This document shows positions 5,499-61,072 of a stretch of DNA of 64,000 nucleotides, one piece after another. The DNA comes from Nitrospirales bacterium. GTDB taxonomy: Bacteria > Nitrospirota > Nitrospiria > Nitrospirales > UBA8639. A program made the translations under genes and the position numbers. Location: contig JAJDBQ010000133.1 of NCBI GenBank assembly GCA_029261255.1, positions 42,805 to 106,804 on the forward strand. Direction: 5' to 3'. Positions within the stretch are counted from its first letter, which is position 1, and every line of letters starts with the position of its first letter. The notes under the pieces were generated by a model. The model was not told the DNA's origin and did no database searches. It saw nothing but the letters and a program-made list of their open reading frames with translations.

Positions 5499-5604
5499 AG
5501 AGGGTGTTAAATACTGAGAATATCAAAGAGCAAGCAAAATCAGGAACATATTGACTAGCAGCGGCTTCGTGTCGGTTCAAAAAATCCGTTCAGCAAGGCC
5601 ACTT

Positions 5605-5649
5605 CGGCAGGCATGGAACCACTAGTCTGTCAGCCGTAGCCTTGGCGAA
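5605..5649. repeat. 45-bp dispersed repeat, copy 1 (copy 2 at 61002-61046)
   Basis: CGGCAGGCATGGAACCACTAGTCTGTCAGCCGTAGCCTTGGCGAA; 43/45 identical to copy 2. Confidence 0.9.
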
Positions 5650-5703
5650 AATTGGCGGCCTTTTGCAACACCCCGTAAACAATTTCAGAAAAGGAGATGT
5701 AGA

Positions 5704-19906: not shown

Positions 19907-20487
19907 TGATGAACTCTAGCATTCAATGCTCCTGAAAATCTTGAGATTAAACGAGTCTTCTGCTCCCTAGGTATTGCGCTGATCTCGAACAAAAACGCTA
20001 GTATCTTGAATGTCCCAGGAAAATTGATCTATGAAACTACATTTAATTGGAATCGGTTCAAGAAAAGTGTTGAGTCGGCGACCAACAACCTAATTTTTAA
20101 GATCTAACAGTTTTCAAGGCAAGGAATAATTTTGAACTGTCCATTGAACCACAGAAATATTAAAACCTGACTTAAGGACGGAAAGTATGACTAAGACGAT
20201 TAACCAGCGAAGATTAATGATCATAGCTGTGCCTGGACAATGATAGTCACACCACTCTATTGGCAGTAATGATTTGTCTATTCATTCGACCTTCGAATCA
20301 TCTCAAATAAAAAGGGAAACCGAGGAAAAGAGTGATCATGGAAAGTGTCTACGACAATCTAATAAACGGGAAGAATGACCATTCGTGGAGAAAAAACAAC
20401 CATTCATGAGGAGAACTTCGAAGAATTTTCGTATTTGAGGGTAAGATGCGTTGAGGTCCTCAGGGAAAGTAATTCATTGGGTTTGAC

Positions 20488-22602
20488 ATGCTGATTGATA
20501 CACCAGAAATTTCGACCGTTTTTATTGCACATGTCAGCGGCTATGTGATCGGGATCACTCTGTATTTCATGCTGTTGGGATTAGTCTTTCAGTCACGCCG
20601 TACGTCGTCACAAAGGACGAAAGGAGATCTCAGTCAATCATCACCTCGATGGCTTGCCTTATGGACTGGAATCTTGGGCTTCGTGTGGAATGTTGGGGCA
20701 TTACTGGCCTTTTTATTACCCCACATACAACTCACCTCCCCGCTACCTGCCCTATCAGCGCTGTCAGTGACGGCCTTGGGATTTTTGCCTGCCGTGGTCA
20801 TTTTGGCGATGGCAGATACTCATTCCATGGGAATTTCTGCCTTGGGGCGACGTGTCATTTCAGGGATAGGATTTCTCTTGAGTGGATGGGCAGGGCTCTG
20901 GCACGTGAGTGGAGTCTGGATTGAACGGTCGGATAACCATGCCGGAGCAGCCCTTGAAATGATGGCTTGGGGGTTCTTGCTGCTTCTTGGTGGTCTTCTC
21001 GCCGTTCATGTCTGGACAAAAGGCTGGGATCAAATGGGGCGGATTGTCGTATTTACCGGAGCAGCAATCGCCGCCCTCCCTTTTAGCCAACATCAAACGG
21101 GGGACTATTCATGGGGTATGGAATTGATAGGACATCACTCAAATCTCTTCCTCGCAGTGGCCATTCTCTACCATGATTACCGATTTGCCTTTTGCGATCT
21201 CTTCTTGAAACGAGCCTTATCATTCTTGTCGCTAGCAATAGTGACATTGGGAGTATTGCTTGTCGTAGGAATTCCCATGTTGAAGACAGAGCAGAGCAAC
21301 AACATGGCTCAAATAGCGGTCTTTCTTACTCTTTGGATTGCGACAGCTTTGTGCTATCCGTATTTGCAACGAGGCGCAACCTGGTTGGTGGATACCGTGT
21401 TGCTGCAACGCCCAGACTACGAGAACCTTCGACAGTCTCTAGCTATGGCGATCAATAAACAGGAAGAACCTCAGCAGATTCTCAGAACTACGGCCTCCCT
21501 TCTCCAACCTACCCTGCTGTCAACCCACATCAGCTGGAGAGAAGACCCCCAAGATCCGAGAGCAGCATTCGAAAATCAAGAGGACAAAAAAGAATGCTCG
21601 TTGATTCCTGATACGCCTGCGGCCATGAATAGTGTCGAGCATAGGAAGAGAGATTCTACACAACACGCGGAGCCATCGCCTGCGTTGAGTCAGACTATAA
21701 AGTCAGAATATCTCGTCCATATTCCGACTGTAGGCGGGCCTTACTTTACCTTCGTCATTGACGGATTACTGCATGGAAGACGATTACTTTCTGATGATTT
21801 TGTGCTGCTAGAAGCCGTGGGGCATTTAGTCGCTCGGCGAATCGATACCGTACGCTCAGCTCACGAACGGTGTGCGATCACGATACGGGAACAAGAAATG
21901 AGAAAGCTGACCGTAGAAGCGGAGCTCAGGGCGCTTCGTGCTCAACTCAATCCTCATTTTTTATTCAATGCCCTCACCACCATAGGATATTTGATTCAGA
22001 CGACACCGGCCCAAGCACTGGACACTCTTTTGAGATTGACAGAATTATTGAGAGCAGTCTTGAAACGCCTGGAAGGCGAGTTTTCTACCTTGGGCCAAGA
22101 GGTGGATCTCGTGCAGTCGTATTTAATGATTGAACAGGCTCGGTTCGAGCAACGATTAATCTATCACATTGATGTCCCCTCAAACTTACGGGGCTGTTCA
22201 GTCCCCGCCTTACTCCTGCAACCGTTGGTCGAGAATGCGGTCAAGCATGGCATTCAACAATCTAGCAAGGGAGGAGCCATCAAAATTTCCGCAAAGCTAC
22301 AAACGGAACAAACCAACAACCAGGATTCCCCATCCATCGTCTACTCTCTACTGCTGACTGTTCACGATACAGGATCTGGATCGGAATCGATCATATCGGA
22401 CCGCGCACGTGGGATGGGGGTTGGGTTATCCAACATACGCAAGCGTCTCCACTTGCATTATGGAGCCATGGCCTCTTTTGACATACATCGTCCTTTAGAG
22501 AATGGCACCATGGTACACATCCAACTACCGATCTCAGCTACTGAACACCCTACCGAAGAAGCCTTTTCGTCTACCTCTTCCAGCCAAGGTAAATGGTCGT
22601 GA
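20488..22602 (+). CDS. LytS-type sensor histidine kinase
   Basis: LRALRAQLNPHFLFNALTTIGYLI; LLLQPLVENAVKHGIQ; multi-TM N-terminus. Confidence 0.92.
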   Translation: MLIDTPEISTVFIAHVSGYVIGITLYFMLLGLVFQSRRTSSQRTKGDLSQSSPRWLALWTGILGFVWNVGALLAFLLPHIQLTSPLPALSALSVTALGFLPAVVILAMADTHSMGISALGRRVISGIGFLLSGWAGLWHVSGVWIERSDNHAGAALEMMAWGFLLLLGGLLAVHVWTKGWDQMGRIVVFTGAAIAALPFSQHQTGDYSWGMELIGHHSNLFLAVAILYHDYRFAFCDLFLKRALSFLSLAIVTLGVLLVVGIPMLKTEQSNNMAQIAVFLTLWIATALCYPYLQRGATWLVDTVLLQRPDYENLRQSLAMAINKQEEPQQILRTTASLLQPTLLSTHISWREDPQDPRAAFENQEDKKECSLIPDTPAAMNSVEHRKRDSTQHAEPSPALSQTIKSEYLVHIPTVGGPYFTFVIDGLLHGRRLLSDDFVLLEAVGHLVARRIDTVRSAHERCAITIREQEMRKLTVEAELRALRAQLNPHFLFNALTTIGYLIQTTPAQALDTLLRLTELLRAVLKRLEGEFSTLGQEVDLVQSYLMIEQARFEQRLIYHIDVPSNLRGCSVPALLLQPLVENAVKHGIQQSSKGGAIKISAKLQTEQTNNQDSPSIVYSLLLTVHDTGSGSESIISDRARGMGVGLSNIRKRLHLHYGAMASFDIHRPLENGTMVHIQLPISATEHPTEEAFSSTSSSQGKWS

Positions 22603-23378
22603 GCAACAAACTTCGGGTTATTGTTGTTGATGATGAACGGCCGGCACGGTCATTTCTGACAACGACCTTAAAAACCCTGGATGATGTCGACATTGTCGGA
22701 GAAGCAGAGAATGGTGAGGACGCAATTAGCCTGATTCAACAGGAACAACCCGACTTGGCATTATTGGATCTCCAAATGCCTGGACTGGATGGCCTCTCCA
22801 TGGTGAAAGCGATCAAAAAAGGACATATTCCATTGATTGCGTTTGTCACAGCGCATAATGAATATGCCATTGAGGCTTTTGATATTGAGGCCATCGACTA
22901 CTTGCTAAAGCCGGTCGACCGCACGCGATTGCAAAAAACCATCAAGCGAGCAAAGGAACGCCTGGAGCGAGAAGATGCCATCGCCAATGAATTGGAAGCT
23001 CAACCGCGCGCTCAAAAGATCGTCTCTCCTGACGATTCGGATTATATTGACCGTCTTCCGATCAAAAAGAAAGAAGAGATCATTTTTTTGCCAGTCAACC
23101 AAATTGCTTCCATTGTTTCGGATGGGGAATTGATGCATATCACCACGCTTCGCAAGGAACGTCATACCATCAGTCACCGCCTCAAGGCGCTTGAGGCAAG
23201 ACTGGATCCCAGGCGATTTGTCCGATTGGGTCGCGGGACACTGGTCAATGTGGAGACGATCAGCAGGGTAGCGAATATGCCGGGAGGGTCGTATTTAGTC
23301 ACCTTGTCCAATTCCCAGCAGCTCAGGGTCAGCCGTAGTCAGTCCCGATTCCTACGGCATGATATCTTGAGGTTGTAA
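22593..23378 (+). CDS. LytTR-family response regulator
   Basis: VIVVDDERPARSFL receiver; C-terminal LytTR (RFVRLGRGTLVNVETISRV..LRVSRSQSRFLRH). Confidence 0.93.
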   Translation: MVVSNKLRVIVVDDERPARSFLTTTLKTLDDVDIVGEAENGEDAISLIQQEQPDLALLDLQMPGLDGLSMVKAIKKGHIPLIAFVTAHNEYAIEAFDIEAIDYLLKPVDRTRLQKTIKRAKERLEREDAIANELEAQPRAQKIVSPDDSDYIDRLPIKKKEEIIFLPVNQIASIVSDGELMHITTLRKERHTISHRLKALEARLDPRRFVRLGRGTLVNVETISRVANMPGGSYLVTLSNSQQLRVSRSQSRFLRHDILRL

Positions 23379-23648
23379 AAACCTCCCTGATGGGATCGGT
23401 TTCTCTCCGCCGCCCCTTTTTTCAAATAGTCGGTCATTCAGGCCAGTCAGTTGATCCAACACGTCTTCCCTCCCCGCTATCAGTTCATTCATGCGATTAT
23501 TGAGGAGTCTCGAGGGAACAATGTTGCCATTCATGAGATTGTGATTGCTGTTGTTGGGAAATCGGTTATCTTTCAGGTCCTGATTATGTTTCGCTTTGAA
23601 GTGATGTAAGGTGACATGGCCGTCCGGGTAAGGTTCTCCTCTTGCCCA

Positions 23649-23713
23649 TGGGAGTGCTGGGGTGAAGGTGTTAGGAATTACGACCTCCTTGTCCTTTATC
23701 CCAGCAACACCCA
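23649..23713 (+). other. Conserved nested-hairpin element, copy 1
   Basis: TGGGAGTGCTGGGG...TCCCAGCAACACCCA; inner stems GAAGG/CCTTT and AGGA/TCCT; partner at 49996-50058 with compensatory changes. Confidence 0.55.
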
Positions 23714-24000
23714 TTTCGCAAGTGCGTCACTAACGTCGGTGGGACAGTTTCTCTAGCCGCTAACGCAAAAAATTCCTCTGTTCTCTTCGACTAACGACTA
23801 ATTCAGCGACTAAGAGGTAAGCAATGAGCAACGATTCTGAGAGTACCCCACTGATAGAGCAACCAAGAAACACAGCATCGGTAAGGGACGGTCGCAATCG
23901 TCCGAAGAGCGGTGCTCAGATATCTTTCAACAAACCAGGGTCGACTTGAAGGTATGGCACAAGGAAGAGTTGTTCTTCGGCCATTCTATGGAATAGGACG

Positions 24001-25514: not shown

Positions 25515-25640
25515 CTTGTTTTTTTCGCAACTTTTTTATGACCGGTTAATTTTCAATCATGAACAGTTGATTGTATACACGAAGCGCCTTCAGCAATGGG
25601 GTTTCACGCTTCACCACAAAATCTGAGTAGCCTCGCCATT
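25515..25640. repeat. Intergenic repeat, copy 1 (partner ~40805-40935)
   Basis: CAACTTTTTTATGAcCGG...GTTGATT...CACGAAGYGCCT...AAgATCTGAGTrGCCTCrCC conserved in both. Confidence 0.7.
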
Positions 25641-45781: not shown

Positions 45782-46656
45782 TTTGCTTCTAGCTCTACAG
45801 TCTGTAGTGAAGGGTTCAGCCGAAGTTAACGTAATCGAAACCCAACATGTATGAGCATGAGACCGAAGAAGGACAGCCCAAATGCAGGCCGCACAATCGA
45901 AAGCAATAGGAGAAGGTCAACAAACAAACTTAATTTCATCTTGAGGGAATAACTGGATTGGTAATGTGTGACTATTAGTTAATATCGGAAGAAAAGAAAA
46001 AAGGCTTAAGCCGTAGCAAGGGCTAGAATCTTGAAGCAATTCGTTTGAAAATACTGACTGTTCGTCTGAATAAAACAACCATTCACGAGGAACCGATTGA
46101 AGGAGGAGTTCTCCTCCTCGTAAGTTGTCACGAAAGTCTATGAGATTTTGATATTGATACAGCCAGTAGAAACGATGCGGTGATCAGTCTTCTTGTGCGG
46201 CCGCCTGGATGTGTGTCCGGATCAACTGCCTTGCCTCAGATGTATCCTCCTGTTCCTTTTATTAGGCAAATGCAACGAAACGTATTTTCATCTGTAGAAG
46301 GCAGAGATGTCTGTTGTGGCGAGTGACTGTCCATTGCCAGTTTGAGTATAAAGCAAAAGGGCAAATTGAAAAGGGCCAATGCTTTTAGGAAAAGACAACT
46401 GCTCTTAGGCTAGATGGGTATCAACCTAGGTGGTGATTATATGGGTTGCTAGCGGTGACCTTAACCAAGAGGCCGAGGGCTCATTCTCTTCCTTTCCACT
46501 TGAGCATACTCCTTTCTTGAACAATATCCCAAACGAGTTCGGCTCTGTTCTTTCATGACGTTCCTGTTTGTGAACGTTGGTCCTGAAGATGCAGAGGCGG
46601 TGGCGACAAAAATTCAATAACCCTCATTCGATTTCAACTACGGTCCTGACTTAGTC

Positions 46657-47391: not shown

Positions 47392-47703
47392 TCGAAAACA
47401 CATTCATGTATTGTCAGTCTTGTTACTGCTGATACGAAGAGAAGAAGATGGGATTGGAGATTTGAACCCAATCACCGGATTTCTGGGTAAGTTTTTTGAC
47501 TGGCAACCTGCTTTCCCCTCACCTTAACTTCAGGCGGTAGAATCAAAGAAAACTTCTAGCAGAACTGTCCACTTCGATCAGCACAGCGACGTCAATCGAC
47601 AGTTGGCTGGAAGAAACAGCCATTCATTTACATTGACGTGCGGATGATAAAAATTTGCACTACTGTGCATTATTATCTCATTCACAATGTAGAGTTTCTC
47701 AGT

Positions 47704-48144
47704 ATGAGCCAAAAGCTAAAGCTCGCAGCCGTACAATATAGACAACAATTGCGGGATTTGGGGTACCGCTTCACGCGACCGCGTGAAGCAGTCCTACGTA
47801 CGGTCTTCGAGGCTGATCATCCCATGACCGCGTCTGAGGTATTTGAACAACTTCAGCAAAATAATACGAGAATTGACTTAGCCACGGTATACCGGAACCT
47901 ACACGTATCATTAGATCTGGGATTAGTGGTGCAATTGGGTTTTGCTTATGAAGGCCAACTTCGATATGCCTGGTCTAAACAACAAGATCACACACAGTAT
48001 GTGCGATGTGAACAATCCGCTGACATCGTCTCCTTGCCAGTACCCTACCTAAAACACCTGCAACATTTCATACGAGACAAAACGGGGTTTTTGGTCAATC
48101 TCCAGTCTTTTGAACTCAGCGGATTATGCCCAGACTGTCAGTAA
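47704..48144 (+). CDS. Fur-family regulator (copy 2) with divergent metal-site residues
   Basis: GYRFTRPREAVLRTV..TASEVFEQLQQNNTRIDLATVYRNLHV..DHTQYVRCEQSADIVSL..GLCPDCQ. Confidence 0.88.
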   Translation: MSQKLKLAAVQYRQQLRDLGYRFTRPREAVLRTVFEADHPMTASEVFEQLQQNNTRIDLATVYRNLHVSLDLGLVVQLGFAYEGQLRYAWSKQQDHTQYVRCEQSADIVSLPVPYLKHLQHFIRDKTGFLVNLQSFELSGLCPDCQ

Positions 48145-49596: not shown

Positions 49597-49995
49597 CACA
49601 TTGCAATTTCACTGCAATGATTCGCTGAAGGCTGATGGCAGCCAAACGTCTCACACATACAAATCAAGAATTATCATTCAATATTTTTGGCGACATATTT
49701 TTCCATCACATGTTCTGCAACTTGAGATGACAGGCGTTTCATTTTGCCTAGAGCCTTTGACGCAAGAATTATGAGCACACAAAGGAAATGCTCAAAAAAA
49801 TAGAACACAAGACGTTGAATGATAGACCTCAGTTTATGCCAACATTTGGGACCATCGAATAAATAATTCTGCCATTCATGAAAAAGTCATTGCGGATATT
49901 GTGCGACTAACTATATTCAAGCTTTATTCATCAGTAGATTCAGATCAACCGCGATGAATGAAGGGCCACCAACAGGGAAGAAAAAATATTTTCCG

Positions 49996-50058
49996 TGGGA
50001 GTGCCAGGGTGAAGGTTATTAGGAGTAGCGACCTCCTTTCCTTTGCCCTGGACACCCA
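49996..50058 (+). other. Conserved nested-hairpin element, copy 2, ~90 nt upstream of the PEP-CTERM gene
   Basis: TGGGAGTGCCAGGG...CCCTGGACACCCA; inner stems GAAGG/CCTTT and AGGAG/CTCCT. Confidence 0.6.
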
Positions 50059-50150
50059 TTTAACGAGGAGCTAGGAGAGCGCATGTGAGAGACGAGAAGC
50101 TACAGGTGAATCGAGAAATTACAAATTTTTACCACAAAAGGGGGTTCGTG

Positions 50151-51017
50151 ATGCCGATCCGTTCATTTCAAGTGTTTTGTATGATGTTGGTTTTCTGTAC
50201 AACAAACATGATTCTAGGTAGTAATGCCATGGCAATCTCTACGGATTTCTATGTCGCAATAGATAATCGTCCGTTGATTTCGTTTGGCGAATATGCGGGA
50301 CTTGCGAATCCCAATCAAGGACGTTTGACGTTTCTTTTGGCGCATCCTAACCAGGATCTCGCACGCAGTCATTTTCATCCGATTGGCGCATATGCTTATA
50401 CCGGACCAGTGGCAGCGCCAGTCGTGCAATCGACGAACAGTAATAATCGTATTCCTGAAACCTTTACAGGTCAGTCTCCTCTTCCCCTCGTGCCAGGAAC
50501 AGGGACCTACACCGATCAGCTCGTTAGTCAACATATACCCGGGCTGGAATACAGCAACCAGGCGATCACGTCGATTCAATCGCTGAATGGTTTTCCTGTC
50601 GGCTCAGTAGAATCATTTCTGTTCAATAGTTCTGGCGGAGGATATACGTCGAACCTCGATGGCGCCATCATCGCATTGGAGTTAGTTGATGTGACGGCCG
50701 GGTTGAGTGTCTACGATGAAACTGGCCAAAATATTTTCTCCAATCCGAGTGAACCGTATATCCTGGGAGACGGAAATTCTTTTCGTTTCACACCAACGTT
50801 TGGGGTAAATGCTGCTGCACCTCCCTCTTCTTACTCTGCCTCATTTCGATTATTGGATCTCGGCAGTGGGCCTACATATACAACGCTACCAGGTTCGGGG
50901 ACCTACAACGTTGATTTCCAGGCAGCGCCCGTTCCTGAGCCTTCAACGATGCTAATGTTGGGGACAGGTCTTATCGGCTTAATCAGTTGGCGATGGTCGA
51001 AACTCAAAACCGTCTGA
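50151..51017 (+). CDS. PEP-CTERM exported protein, all3515 (Zur-repressed) family type
   Basis: TDFYVAIDNRPLISFGEYAGLANPNQGRLTFLLAH..HFHPIGAYAYTG; C-terminus VPEPSTMLMLGTGLIGLISWRWSK. Confidence 0.85.
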   Translation: MPIRSFQVFCMMLVFCTTNMILGSNAMAISTDFYVAIDNRPLISFGEYAGLANPNQGRLTFLLAHPNQDLARSHFHPIGAYAYTGPVAAPVVQSTNSNNRIPETFTGQSPLPLVPGTGTYTDQLVSQHIPGLEYSNQAITSIQSLNGFPVGSVESFLFNSSGGGYTSNLDGAIIALELVDVTAGLSVYDETGQNIFSNPSEPYILGDGNSFRFTPTFGVNAAAPPSSYSASFRLLDLGSGPTYTTLPGSGTYNVDFQAAPVPEPSTMLMLGTGLIGLISWRWSKLKTV

Positions 51018-51559
51018 ACTGGACAACATAGAAACCGTTTCTGAGAGCCGCTTGTCATTATTGATGAGCGGCTCTTATCGTTTGCTTCGCGCTTCACGCG
51101 TATTGTTCCACCTATAGGCAGGGCCTTTTCCAAGAGGTTGAACACATCCTGCTCCATTTCATTGCTCACGAGTTTCTTCGTGTATCAGACGAACATACTT
51201 CGTTATCAGGTAATCCTTTTCCTCAAGATCTAGATCATGCAGGGACATGGATTCGTTATCTATCTAATGAAACAAAGGACGATTTTTCATAGTAGCGTGC
51301 GCATTATATTCATTCCCTACTAGGACCAAAACAAAAAGGTATATTGGATTGGGTAGATGGCCTGGTTAGTGGCAAAGCGACCGTCGGAGAAACTAACCAC
51401 TTGTGTTTTAAATTTGAATTGATTGAACGAGAGTGTGTGAAGCTGAATCGACTGACGTTGAAAGCGGACTCGGTAAACCTCATACGGCACGCAGAGGCGA
51501 TTATCTCTTCTATTTATTCACCCATCGGTTTCCATTGGGCCTCAAATCCTAGCGCCACG

Positions 51560-52470
51560 CGTCGAGTATACCCGTGACGCAAGCCCCAGACCATCGGAAT
51601 GGCGTGGATTGGCCCCATTTCTCGCGACTGATACTCTCGCGCATCTTGTGTATCCTTATTGAGAAAACGATGAGTCCGACTCCTGTGGTAGTAGGCTAAA
51701 TAGCTTCGTAAGATTCGATGAAAATGAGTGGCGCTCAAGATGATCAGGCGGTCGAGACACTCTCGACGAATTGAGCCGATGATGCGCTCCACATAGGGGT
51801 TCTTCCAAGGAGATCGGGAAACGGTGCACATTTGCTCAATCCCCATCCCCTCAACTTTGCGCTGAAATTCATTCCTTAAATTCAATCTCGATCCCGCAAG
51901 ACATACTTTGGAACCGTGTCATAGGGAAAGGCCTCAACCATCTGTTGAGCCGTCCATTCCGCTGTAGGATGTTCTGGGATAGCGAAATGCAAAACTGCAC
52001 GCCGGTCAAGAGACAACACGAGAAAGACAGAGCGGACACGAAACGTCGCCGTGGGCCACGGTTAACAATTCAATGAAGACCATGTCAGACGCATGATTTC
52101 TCAGAAAGGTCTTCCATGATTGAGAGAGAGGCTTCCGATGCTGAATCATGTATTTGGATACAGTGGCTTGCGAAACATGACTGTCGAGTTTCAGCAGCTG
52201 CCCTTGAATCCGCTGAGCGCCCCACAACGGATTGGCTGGACTCATCGTTCGAATGAGACCTCATACCACTGGATCAATGAAGGGATATCCGGGCTTTTCA
52301 CTTTGGCTTTTCTAGGTCCAATAAAGTCAAAACCCCTGCCAGTGCTATCGAAGAACGGTCTCTGGTTGCACAAGGATACGAGCCTTTGCCCCGTGCAGCC
52401 GTACACGTAAGACCGTAACCCAGAAGAGGCGATCAAGACGAGTCAATTGTGGTCGTTTGGCCGAGTGATT
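51560..52470 (-). pseudogene. Integrase-core (rve) transposase remnant
   Basis: Reverse-strand fragments NPLWGAQRIQGQLLKL, WKNPYVERIIGSIRRECLDRLIILSATHFHRILRSYLAYYHRSRTHRFLNKDT in different frames. Confidence 0.75.
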
Positions 52471-53311
52471 CAATACCACCAAAAATTGCCAAAGCGCGAG
52501 GTTTTCGAAGAGTGGCTACTTCTGAGCCTAACAGACGGAGAGAAGCATGTTTCCAGCCCATTTCATTGTTCTCATCATAACTGGAAAGGGTTCCTGGATA
52601 GACGAAAATTTCCAAACGTTTCAACGCGGATGAATAGAAGGAACAGGTTCATCACCACCAAACCATCCGTTCGTTATCAATTATTGACTGTTCATGAAAA
52701 AAAAATGGTAATCCATGCCCTTCACATTGTAAAAGCTCCCGCGACGACAGACCAGATGGCCTACCAGTCTGTCTTCTTTGGCTAACACCCAATATCCAAC
52801 AATTATATTCGAGGCGAGCTTGCGGACATTCGAAAGAGAGACGTTTTCTTTTTGTGTAATCAGGGACATCGAACGTTTCTCTTAGCGTTCAATATCCCGA
52901 TCTAATTTATTTAAACAGTTCAACGAGAATAAGACAAACGCCAATATGGGATTCCTGAACATATTCATGAGCGACAGGTGGATAATGAATCCTAGCGTGG
53001 GCCGCGCGAGAACTGATTACCAGCCTTTTGCTAGTTTTCATCTTGTCATACCTTGGATTCTCAATTCCAAAGAGCATTACCTGAAACATGACTTGCCGTT
53101 TCTTTCCCTCCACTCCATACAATTCGACCGCTCATCGGCCGAACAACCTGCCCAAAAATCTGGGAATGTAGCATGCATGATTAGAACGGCTTTCAAGCCT
53201 TATGGGATCTTTCCCCGCTTGTTCGTTTGCCCCACTACATAGGCTTCCCGAAGAAATTATTTAAATATTTATTTTCTATACTTGTTTAGGTGTAAAGGAG
53301 AGAAGAAAGAC

Positions 53312-57130: not shown

Positions 57131-58143
57131 CAAAGAGAGAATTGATCTTCCCCACACAACTAAGACTCAAGCCTAAGCTGTCTGCTCAAACACCATTGGT
57201 ATCCGCTCTCTAATCGCCGAGTGTTTTCTCTCGTGCCTGGCGAGTTCTAAATCATGCTGTCATTGGTGACTGAAATAATCCCCGACGAGGTGACTGCTAT
57301 ACAAAATGACTTGGATCTTTTGGTGGCATTGAGGCTTTCCCTACTTCTTCGGAAATTTTCTTATCCAAACGCTGATGGATTCGATTTTCATTTTACTACT
57401 CCTTAAACGCATCTCCCTTTCACTCCAAATCCTATTCATTCCAGAACAGTAATTAATCCAAATATTCTCGGCGAAGGGTGCCGATCAGTCATTCAACGAA
57501 CGGGTGGAGCACTGGCACATTCTGAATCGATTTCACCTCATGTATTCCTAATATTCTCAATATAAGCCTGCCACTGATGGAACCGAAATAGAGGATCATT
57601 ATCGAAGCTCAAGCAGCGAGGACACTTGTAGCGGTGTAATTGTCGGGAGAGGGTTCTTCCATCTATGAGAATAGCTGGGTGGACTCCGAACCTGATGATC
57701 CGACGCACGGATTGATTCGTCACAACAAGGACCCAATGCGTCTAGAGTCGAAGGGACTTACACAGGAAGGAATCAAGACTCCATAGACACTCTTTCGTCT
57801 AGCCGATGAAAGATAGCCATGTAAAGATGATTCATGGCGAGAAAGCGGCCCGTTGAAGAGAAATTCAGACGTAACGAAACTGAGCATTAGGAGCGTGAAT
57901 AAGGAATTCACCAAGGACAGGTGTTCCAGTCCATTGCAGTACTATCGTGCTGCTTGGATTAGGTGCCTGGGTAGGCGGAAATTTTCAAGAGTTTCAAGGC
58001 GGATGAATTAAGGGAAGGGACATTATGTGTCGAGATAATTTCTGCAGTGACTCGTCAAATTAGATTTATCGAGAATGAAGTAGACTGAAAGTGAAAGAAG
58101 AAGAAGAGGTGTCCGCATGAACATGAGGTAGCTAAGTATACAG

Positions 58144-60783: not shown

Positions 60784-61001
60784 TTTTTACTGAATATCCG
60801 TGCCCAATGCTTGCGATAAACAGGAATGATTAAAAGATTCCTTCCAACGAGGCCGCAGCCGTTCCCGGCGTTCGTAGCTCACTTCCGCCTACGGAGGCCT
60901 AAGCCTTCGGCGGAGGACTCGGCGGAGTAGGCTTGGCGCGAAGAGCGTGCGACTAGTACGTGAACACGGGGAAAAGGCGACCCGCCTGTGCGAAGCCGCT
61001 C

Positions 61002-61046
61002 CGGCAGGCATGGAACCGCTAGCCTGTCAGCCGTAGCCTTGGCGAA
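61002..61046. repeat. 45-bp dispersed repeat, copy 2
   Basis: CGGCAGGCATGGAACCGCTAGCCTGTCAGCCGTAGCCTTGGCGAA, 43/45 identical to 5605-5649. Confidence 0.9.
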
Positions 61047-61072
61047 GCCTGATAGCTTTTTTCAACAGTCCA

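Follow-up and report, generated by a model that had tools for sequence, protein, structure and literature searches.

A hairpin family with a constant CCUCC loop, apparently a new structured RNA, in zinc and probable copper loci of Nitrospirales

Two nested hairpins in the window, the 64,000-nucleotide stretch of Nitrospirales DNA analysed here, belong to a real and apparently new structured-RNA family, the function of which we infer. About 60 copies were found in one Nitrospirales clade, as stand-alone units, 5' leaders or 3' UTRs inside metal loci. By its sequence, the loop motif CCUCC(U), found in the main hairpin and often in a second one, is an anti-Shine-Dalgarno motif, and it stays constant while the stems around it diverge. 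The reading we prefer, with a probability of about one half, is that these are anti-Shine-Dalgarno regulatory RNAs which would pair, independently of Hfq, with the ribosome-binding sites of metal-uptake mRNAs; the family probably tunes the amount of metal-uptake protein made.

Nitrospira-type respiration depends on metalloenzymes, and the family offers a concrete, testable RNA layer for metal acquisition in these bacteria. It is now tied to leader proteins resembling CruR, and to ZepA (all3515), which has been characterised in Anabaena as an exoprotein for zinc uptake (PMC10957091).

Results

Each copy in the window consists of a strong nested hairpin, P2, preceded by a second hairpin, P1. Scores below are those of R2, a covariance model of the P2 core.

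23626..23647, + strand: P1 hairpin of copy 1, GGGTAAGGTTCTCCTCTTGCCC
23648..23714, + strand: P2 nested hairpin, copy 1; core 23657-23704; loop region CGACCUCCUU; R2 60.9 bits, E 1.5e-12
49975..49994, + strand: P1 hairpin of copy 2, GGGAAGAAAAAATATTTTCC; a fold prediction, weaker than in relatives and without CCUCC
49996..50058, + strand: P2 nested hairpin, copy 2; core 50004-50051; loop region GACCUCCUUU; R2 56 bits, E 2.7e-11

Alignment of the two copies (78 columns, 88% mean column identity) and folding against shuffled sequences confirmed the two nested hairpins of the original prediction. Folding energies of the + strands were -35.5 and -34.9 kcal/mol (z = -5.3 and -5.1), and none of 200 shuffles folded as well; the - strands were less stable, with z about -3.4. 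Compensatory changes had been claimed in the main stem, where two pairs indeed differ at both positions: C-G in one copy is replaced by T-A in the other, and A-T by G-C. A main-stem G is bulged in one copy and paired in the other, and the outer TGGG/CCCA stem is the same in both. The all3515-type gene probably starts with the ATG at 50151, 93 nt from the end of P2 in copy 2 (50058), where about 90 had been announced; the longest ORF call for this gene starts at a GTG, at 50085.

A first model recovered two extra copies in the window's own genome (contig C186), and showed that most genomes of the genus have homologues. R2 matched 18 of the 22 genomes of this genus, all five genomes of g9, a sister genus, and a single one from a third genus, g6; phylum-wide, 11 of 399 genomes gave matches. 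With a later model, R3, built from 54 copies, likely members were also recognised in one more genus of the same bacterial family (G040), and in G340 and G455 from another family of the order, which was already represented by G211. These were accepted on the presence of two hairpins with CCTCC and, for most, on their neighbour genes. Weak R3 matches at four loci (L116, L117, L119 and L120) were not accepted, being judged other repeats or lying amid unrelated genes, and reverse-strand matches at the same places, being the mirror of the hairpin, were excluded from the count. In total, 59 copies were gathered and read out. A pattern scan of 85,488 named species matched Nitrospirota records exclusively, for example Nitrospirales NPIRA03, 04 and 06, using a pattern that does not reach divergent forms and on a collection in which the genome of the window, and genomes very close to it, are possibly missing. 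Rfam gave no match for the whole window at the gathering threshold, nor for 49850-50110 at E 10, nor for six relatives at E 5, and we found no description of the hairpin family in the literature searched for Nitrospira small RNAs and riboswitches.

Among 51 distinct P2 sequences, 93.4% of pair cells hold standard pairs, and two-sided changes are found in 9 of the 16 pairs. Over these nine pairs, 45 two-sided cells were counted versus 15 expected, counts that ignore phylogeny. None of 500 shuffles matched the observed covariation or percentage paired, and pairing fell to 37–55% when partners were slid by 1–3 columns. Covariation in P2 is thus strong in spite of phylogeny-uncorrected counts, lying above all shuffles and all slid controls, and together with the further copies it supports the structured element originally proposed. 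Non-Watson-Crick cells are more often G-U than A-C when read on the + strand (37 versus 18, p = 0.014), which points to the + strand as the RNA. P1 lies directly 5' of P2 in most copies, and its position is kept also in L083, L109, L076 and L080. The P2 hairpins of a zinc subclass, named for its neighbour genes, have an additional outer stem, itself variable: TGGGAGTG/CACCCA in the window, GGGTTC/GAACCC in L080, and ATGGGAGTC/CGATACCCAT in L083.

A reverse-strand ORF at 23352-23714, which overlaps copy 1, had been named as another possible cause of the conservation. It is absent from copy 2 and from the other copies, loop lengths vary by 1, 3 and more nt, and the same excess of + strand G-U cells over A-C cells speaks against it. 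A coding origin was also rejected: the 45- and 48-nt forms hold one frame open (QGEGIWT...), which is broken in the window copies and in L008.

CCUCC is the core of the 16S rRNA anti-Shine-Dalgarno sequence. CCTCC is present in 45 of 53 distinct P2 cores, where shuffling of the apical part leaves it in a mean of 1.1 and a maximum of 6. It recurs in 25 of the 26 P1 hairpins of the CCAAGG/CCTTGG class, and is retained in L115, L118 and L121, where P1 stems are unlike the common type. The shortest P2 forms (L084:6888, L115, L118, L121) are a plain stem with a CCUCC(U) loop. P1 hairpins of the zinc subclass, both window copies included, and of a GGAGCGG subclass are devoid of CCTCC. According to the predicted fold, the UCC of the motif is engaged in most copies in a three-pair helix with GGA, with an unpaired probability of 0.2–0.3; the motif would therefore be partly masked, and would have to open to bind. 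Kissing through a palindromic TTGCAA loop was considered and rejected, because the palindrome is not kept in the family.

The window copies lie in a zinc context, with the following features.

20379..20408, + strand: LytTR-like direct repeat, 21-bp period, ahead of the kinase gene
20488..22602, + strand: sensor histidine kinase of a LytTR two-component system (PF06580)
22593..23378, + strand: LytTR response regulator (PF00072 and PF04397), candidate activator of both copies
23527..23572, + strand: predicted promoter of copy 1, CCATTCATG-N12-CTGTTGTTG, -10 TATCTT
49872..49917, + strand: predicted promoter of copy 2, LytTR-like direct repeat CCATTCATG-N12-CGGATATTG, -10 TATATT; spacing fixed in five loci
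50085..51017, + strand: all3515 (ZepA) family PEP-CTERM protein gene, downstream of copy 2 (NF040463, E 1.4e-80)
50136..50144, + strand: likely Shine-Dalgarno AAAAGGGGG of this gene (ATG 50151), complementary to CCUCCUUU of P2

Copy 1 is found 3' of the LytTR two-component system, flanked by the response regulator gene on one side and by a gene of the opposite strand on the other. In L083, from another genus, the order kinase, regulator, small protein, element, all3515 is repeated; an all3515 gene again lies 3' of the element in L109, and a CobW-type GTPase gene is near it in L080. The zinc group includes all3515/ZepA, ZIP and the LytTR two-component system. In Anabaena, ZepA is a zinc-uptake exoprotein under Zur control (PMC10957091).

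Most of the family is located in a second regulon, the metal of which is probably copper. Its neighbours are ExbB, ExbD, TonB receptors, BNR-repeat proteins, cytochrome P460, DsbA/VKOR and small DUF2946-like proteins. Two clusters (c1 and c6) of small proteins encoded in loci L065-L115 have RAPP or RGPP at their ends in 22 of 23 and 18 of 18 cases, 40 of 41 in all. RAPP is the arrest motif of the copper-responsive leader protein CruR (PMC9426467), and by this likeness copper is the likely metal of the second group; this is a lead and not a proof, because the CXXC of CruR is mostly absent from the RAPP/RGPP proteins.

In five zinc-subclass loci, a 9-bp LytTR-like repeat of the CCATTCATG type sits 127–136 nt 5' of P2, with a second repeat 21 bp on, degenerate in some of them, and a TANNNT exactly 40 nt after the start of the box. 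Known LytTR sites are two 9-bp direct repeats about 12 bp apart (PMC6193735), and the predicted sites of all five loci have this arrangement. Best box scores in 20 block-shuffles of the window had a mean of 16.3 and a maximum of 18.2; four window sites score higher, which counts as supporting evidence only, because these four also trained the matrix. Similar boxes are seen on the + strand at 46058-46087 and 52667-52696, the latter ahead of a TonB receptor gene, and another, outside the training set of the matrix, at 25586 on the - strand, ahead of a dihydroorotase gene. The LytTR-like repeats could possibly delineate a LytTR zinc regulon, next to the Fur-family gene at 47638-48144.

In the second group, at least 16 copies have a different box, TGTWGCA...CAGYA...GTAGA, at -135 to -144 from P2, followed by a TATA-like -10. 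The box contains partly repeated 10–11-bp units (e.g. L065 about 9183, L068 about 8065). Copies just past cytochrome P460 or cluster 4 genes have no second-group box close upstream, and look like 3' UTRs. Downstream of the stem, a T-run (6 or more T within 10 nt) follows 21 of the 59 copies, for a background of 2.9%; the remaining 38, both window copies among them, fall short of that number. A subset of copies has sequences resembling a promoter or a terminator, and for the window copies the promoter-like elements predict transcripts of ~140 nt.

Relative to genes, many copies are situated 23–99 nt past a stop codon, and several roughly 100–460 nt 5' of same-strand genes. In L065, L097 and L098, element, box and -10 are kept, though the next downstream gene is on the opposite strand. 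These three loci and window copy 1 thus have a promoter-like box and no gene to lead, for which a trans-acting RNA is the simplest reading.

Discussion

Fold, covariation, likely strand, family, motif conservation and genomic context are computed results; from them we infer promoters, transcripts, pairing, sign of regulation and targets. In the mechanism that we propose, each copy is a short RNA element, made of a strong P2 and usually a 5' P1. A regulated promoter of its own would produce it, as a separate unit or as a 5' leader; otherwise it would be the 3' UTR of a metal-locus operon. By pairing with the ribosome-binding site, its CCUCC(U) loop would block translation of metal-uptake mRNAs encoded next to it, and probably of others as well, resulting in feedback on the acquisition of zinc and probably copper. 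Among gene clusters, all3515 and cytochrome P460, both adjoining elements, are among those with Shine-Dalgarno regions most complementary to the motif (means of -14.5 and -11.6 kcal/mol, respectively, versus -6.9 for other genes). These values agree, weakly, with feedback on neighbouring genes, whether in cis or in trans; as evidence for targets they are weak, because any strong Shine-Dalgarno sequence matches the motif, start codons are guesses and orthologues do not count as independent cases. A search for Hfq in the 22 genomes of the genus found none, so that any chaperoning would have to come about in some other way.

The strongest competing reading is an attenuator acting in cis from the leader. 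P2 would then be a terminator, or a hairpin sequestering the Shine-Dalgarno sequence, in the 5' UTR of a metal operon, switched by P1, by a ligand, by a protein or by translation of a leader peptide; riboswitches are included. We consider it possible but rather unlikely, and both readings may hold for different copies. P2 with a T-run is encountered 148–152 nt 5' of the BNR gene in several genomes, 145–244 nt 5' of the RAPP-leader gene, and 34–105 nt 5' of the ORF starts called for all3515 genes. P1 loops or 3' arms are, by eye, complementary to the P2 5' arm in many copies (ACCUUGG with CCAGGGU; CCCUGA with UCAGGG), these loci encode RAPP/RGPP leader proteins, and the copies roughly 100–460 nt ahead of same-strand genes fit a cis leader equally well. 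However, the stand-alone and 3'-UTR copies lack a nearby gene on the same strand on which they could act in cis, and the T-run is lacking in 38 of 59 copies, including both of the window. As for riboswitches, leader position in some copies and T-runs in 21 of 59 would suit that class, but stand-alone and 3'-UTR copies also exist, no conserved aptamer-like core is seen beyond the loop, Rfam is silent even at E 10, and no evidence of a ligand-binding aptamer was found in the hairpin family.

The same T-runs, and the many copies shortly past a stop codon, would suit ordinary terminators or 3'-end stabilising hairpins, duplicated inside metal operons and with no regulatory role. This is unlikely: most copies lack the T-run, and a terminator needs neither a conserved CCUCC loop (45 of 53), nor a partner hairpin, nor a dedicated promoter at a fixed distance. 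It is more improbable still that the conserved GGA of the hairpin binds CsrA, as a leader site or as a sponge. CsrA is encoded in 20 of the 22 genomes of the genus, and most P2 copies have GGA apically, as one P1 class also has it, but it is predicted to be base-paired and not in a loop, and the P2 subtype of P460 3' UTRs, as well as L115, lose GGA yet keep CCUCC. Finally, a mobile palindromic repeat, REP or MITE-like, is hardly credible: several similar copies do occur per genome, but with about 10 matches per genome at most, mostly in metal loci, at positions conserved among orthologs and at fixed promoter distances.

The anti-Shine-Dalgarno reading has a precedent in the multi-hairpin alpha-r14 / NfeR1 (cuckoo) sRNAs of alphaproteobacteria, which silence mRNAs by covering the ribosome-binding site (PMC10746234). 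Shared with them are several hairpins, differing stems and a constant anti-Shine-Dalgarno loop; their own promoter and regulated expression (PMC10746234) are predicted here. The feature by which they work, a constant anti-Shine-Dalgarno sequence on divergent stems, is present here. Membership in alpha-r14 goes with a 9-nt motif, CCUCCUCCC, in the unpaired regions of three hairpins, whereas the Nitrospirales family has CCUCC(U), partly paired with GGA, in one or two hairpins. It also differs in belonging to another phylum, in its link to metal loci, and in a genus where no Hfq was found. P460-linked copies may come from the 3' UTR of a protein gene, as do the CcsR1-4 RNAs of Rhodobacter sphaeroides, which are processed from one (PMC8625941); compared by description only, CcsR1-4 differ by their origin in the ccaF1 mRNA and their induction by oxidative stress. 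CruR regulates TonB-dependent receptors via its nascent peptide and Rho (PMC9426467). As in CruR (DUF2946) loci, DUF2946-like small proteins with C-terminal RAPP/RGPP are encoded here beside TonB receptors; unlike there, the hairpin RNA is a separate element and the CXXC is missing from most of the RAPP/RGPP proteins. In its proposed function, the family would work like anti-Shine-Dalgarno hairpin RNAs, while belonging to none of the described families.

In its widest form our proposal is tentative: an Hfq-independent anti-Shine-Dalgarno RNA family would provide Nitrospirales with a layer of feedback on how zinc and copper are acquired, its module being used as stand-alone sRNA, 5' leader and 3' UTR, beside RAPP/RGPP leader-peptide regulation and under two metal-linked promoters.

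Other sequences of the window were recorded on the way. Between the all3515 and TonB receptor genes, on the - strand (51514-52245), ORF translations read by eye contain fragments resembling a broken IS3-type transposase. A 93-nt direct repeat, 72% identical, is present at 52551-52643 and 57924-58016, near the TonB receptor. A dispersed GC-rich repeat at 5593-5670 and 60990-61067 is 82% identical between its two copies; a similar stretch is found just 5' of the L080 element, and it is probably a genome-wide repeat.
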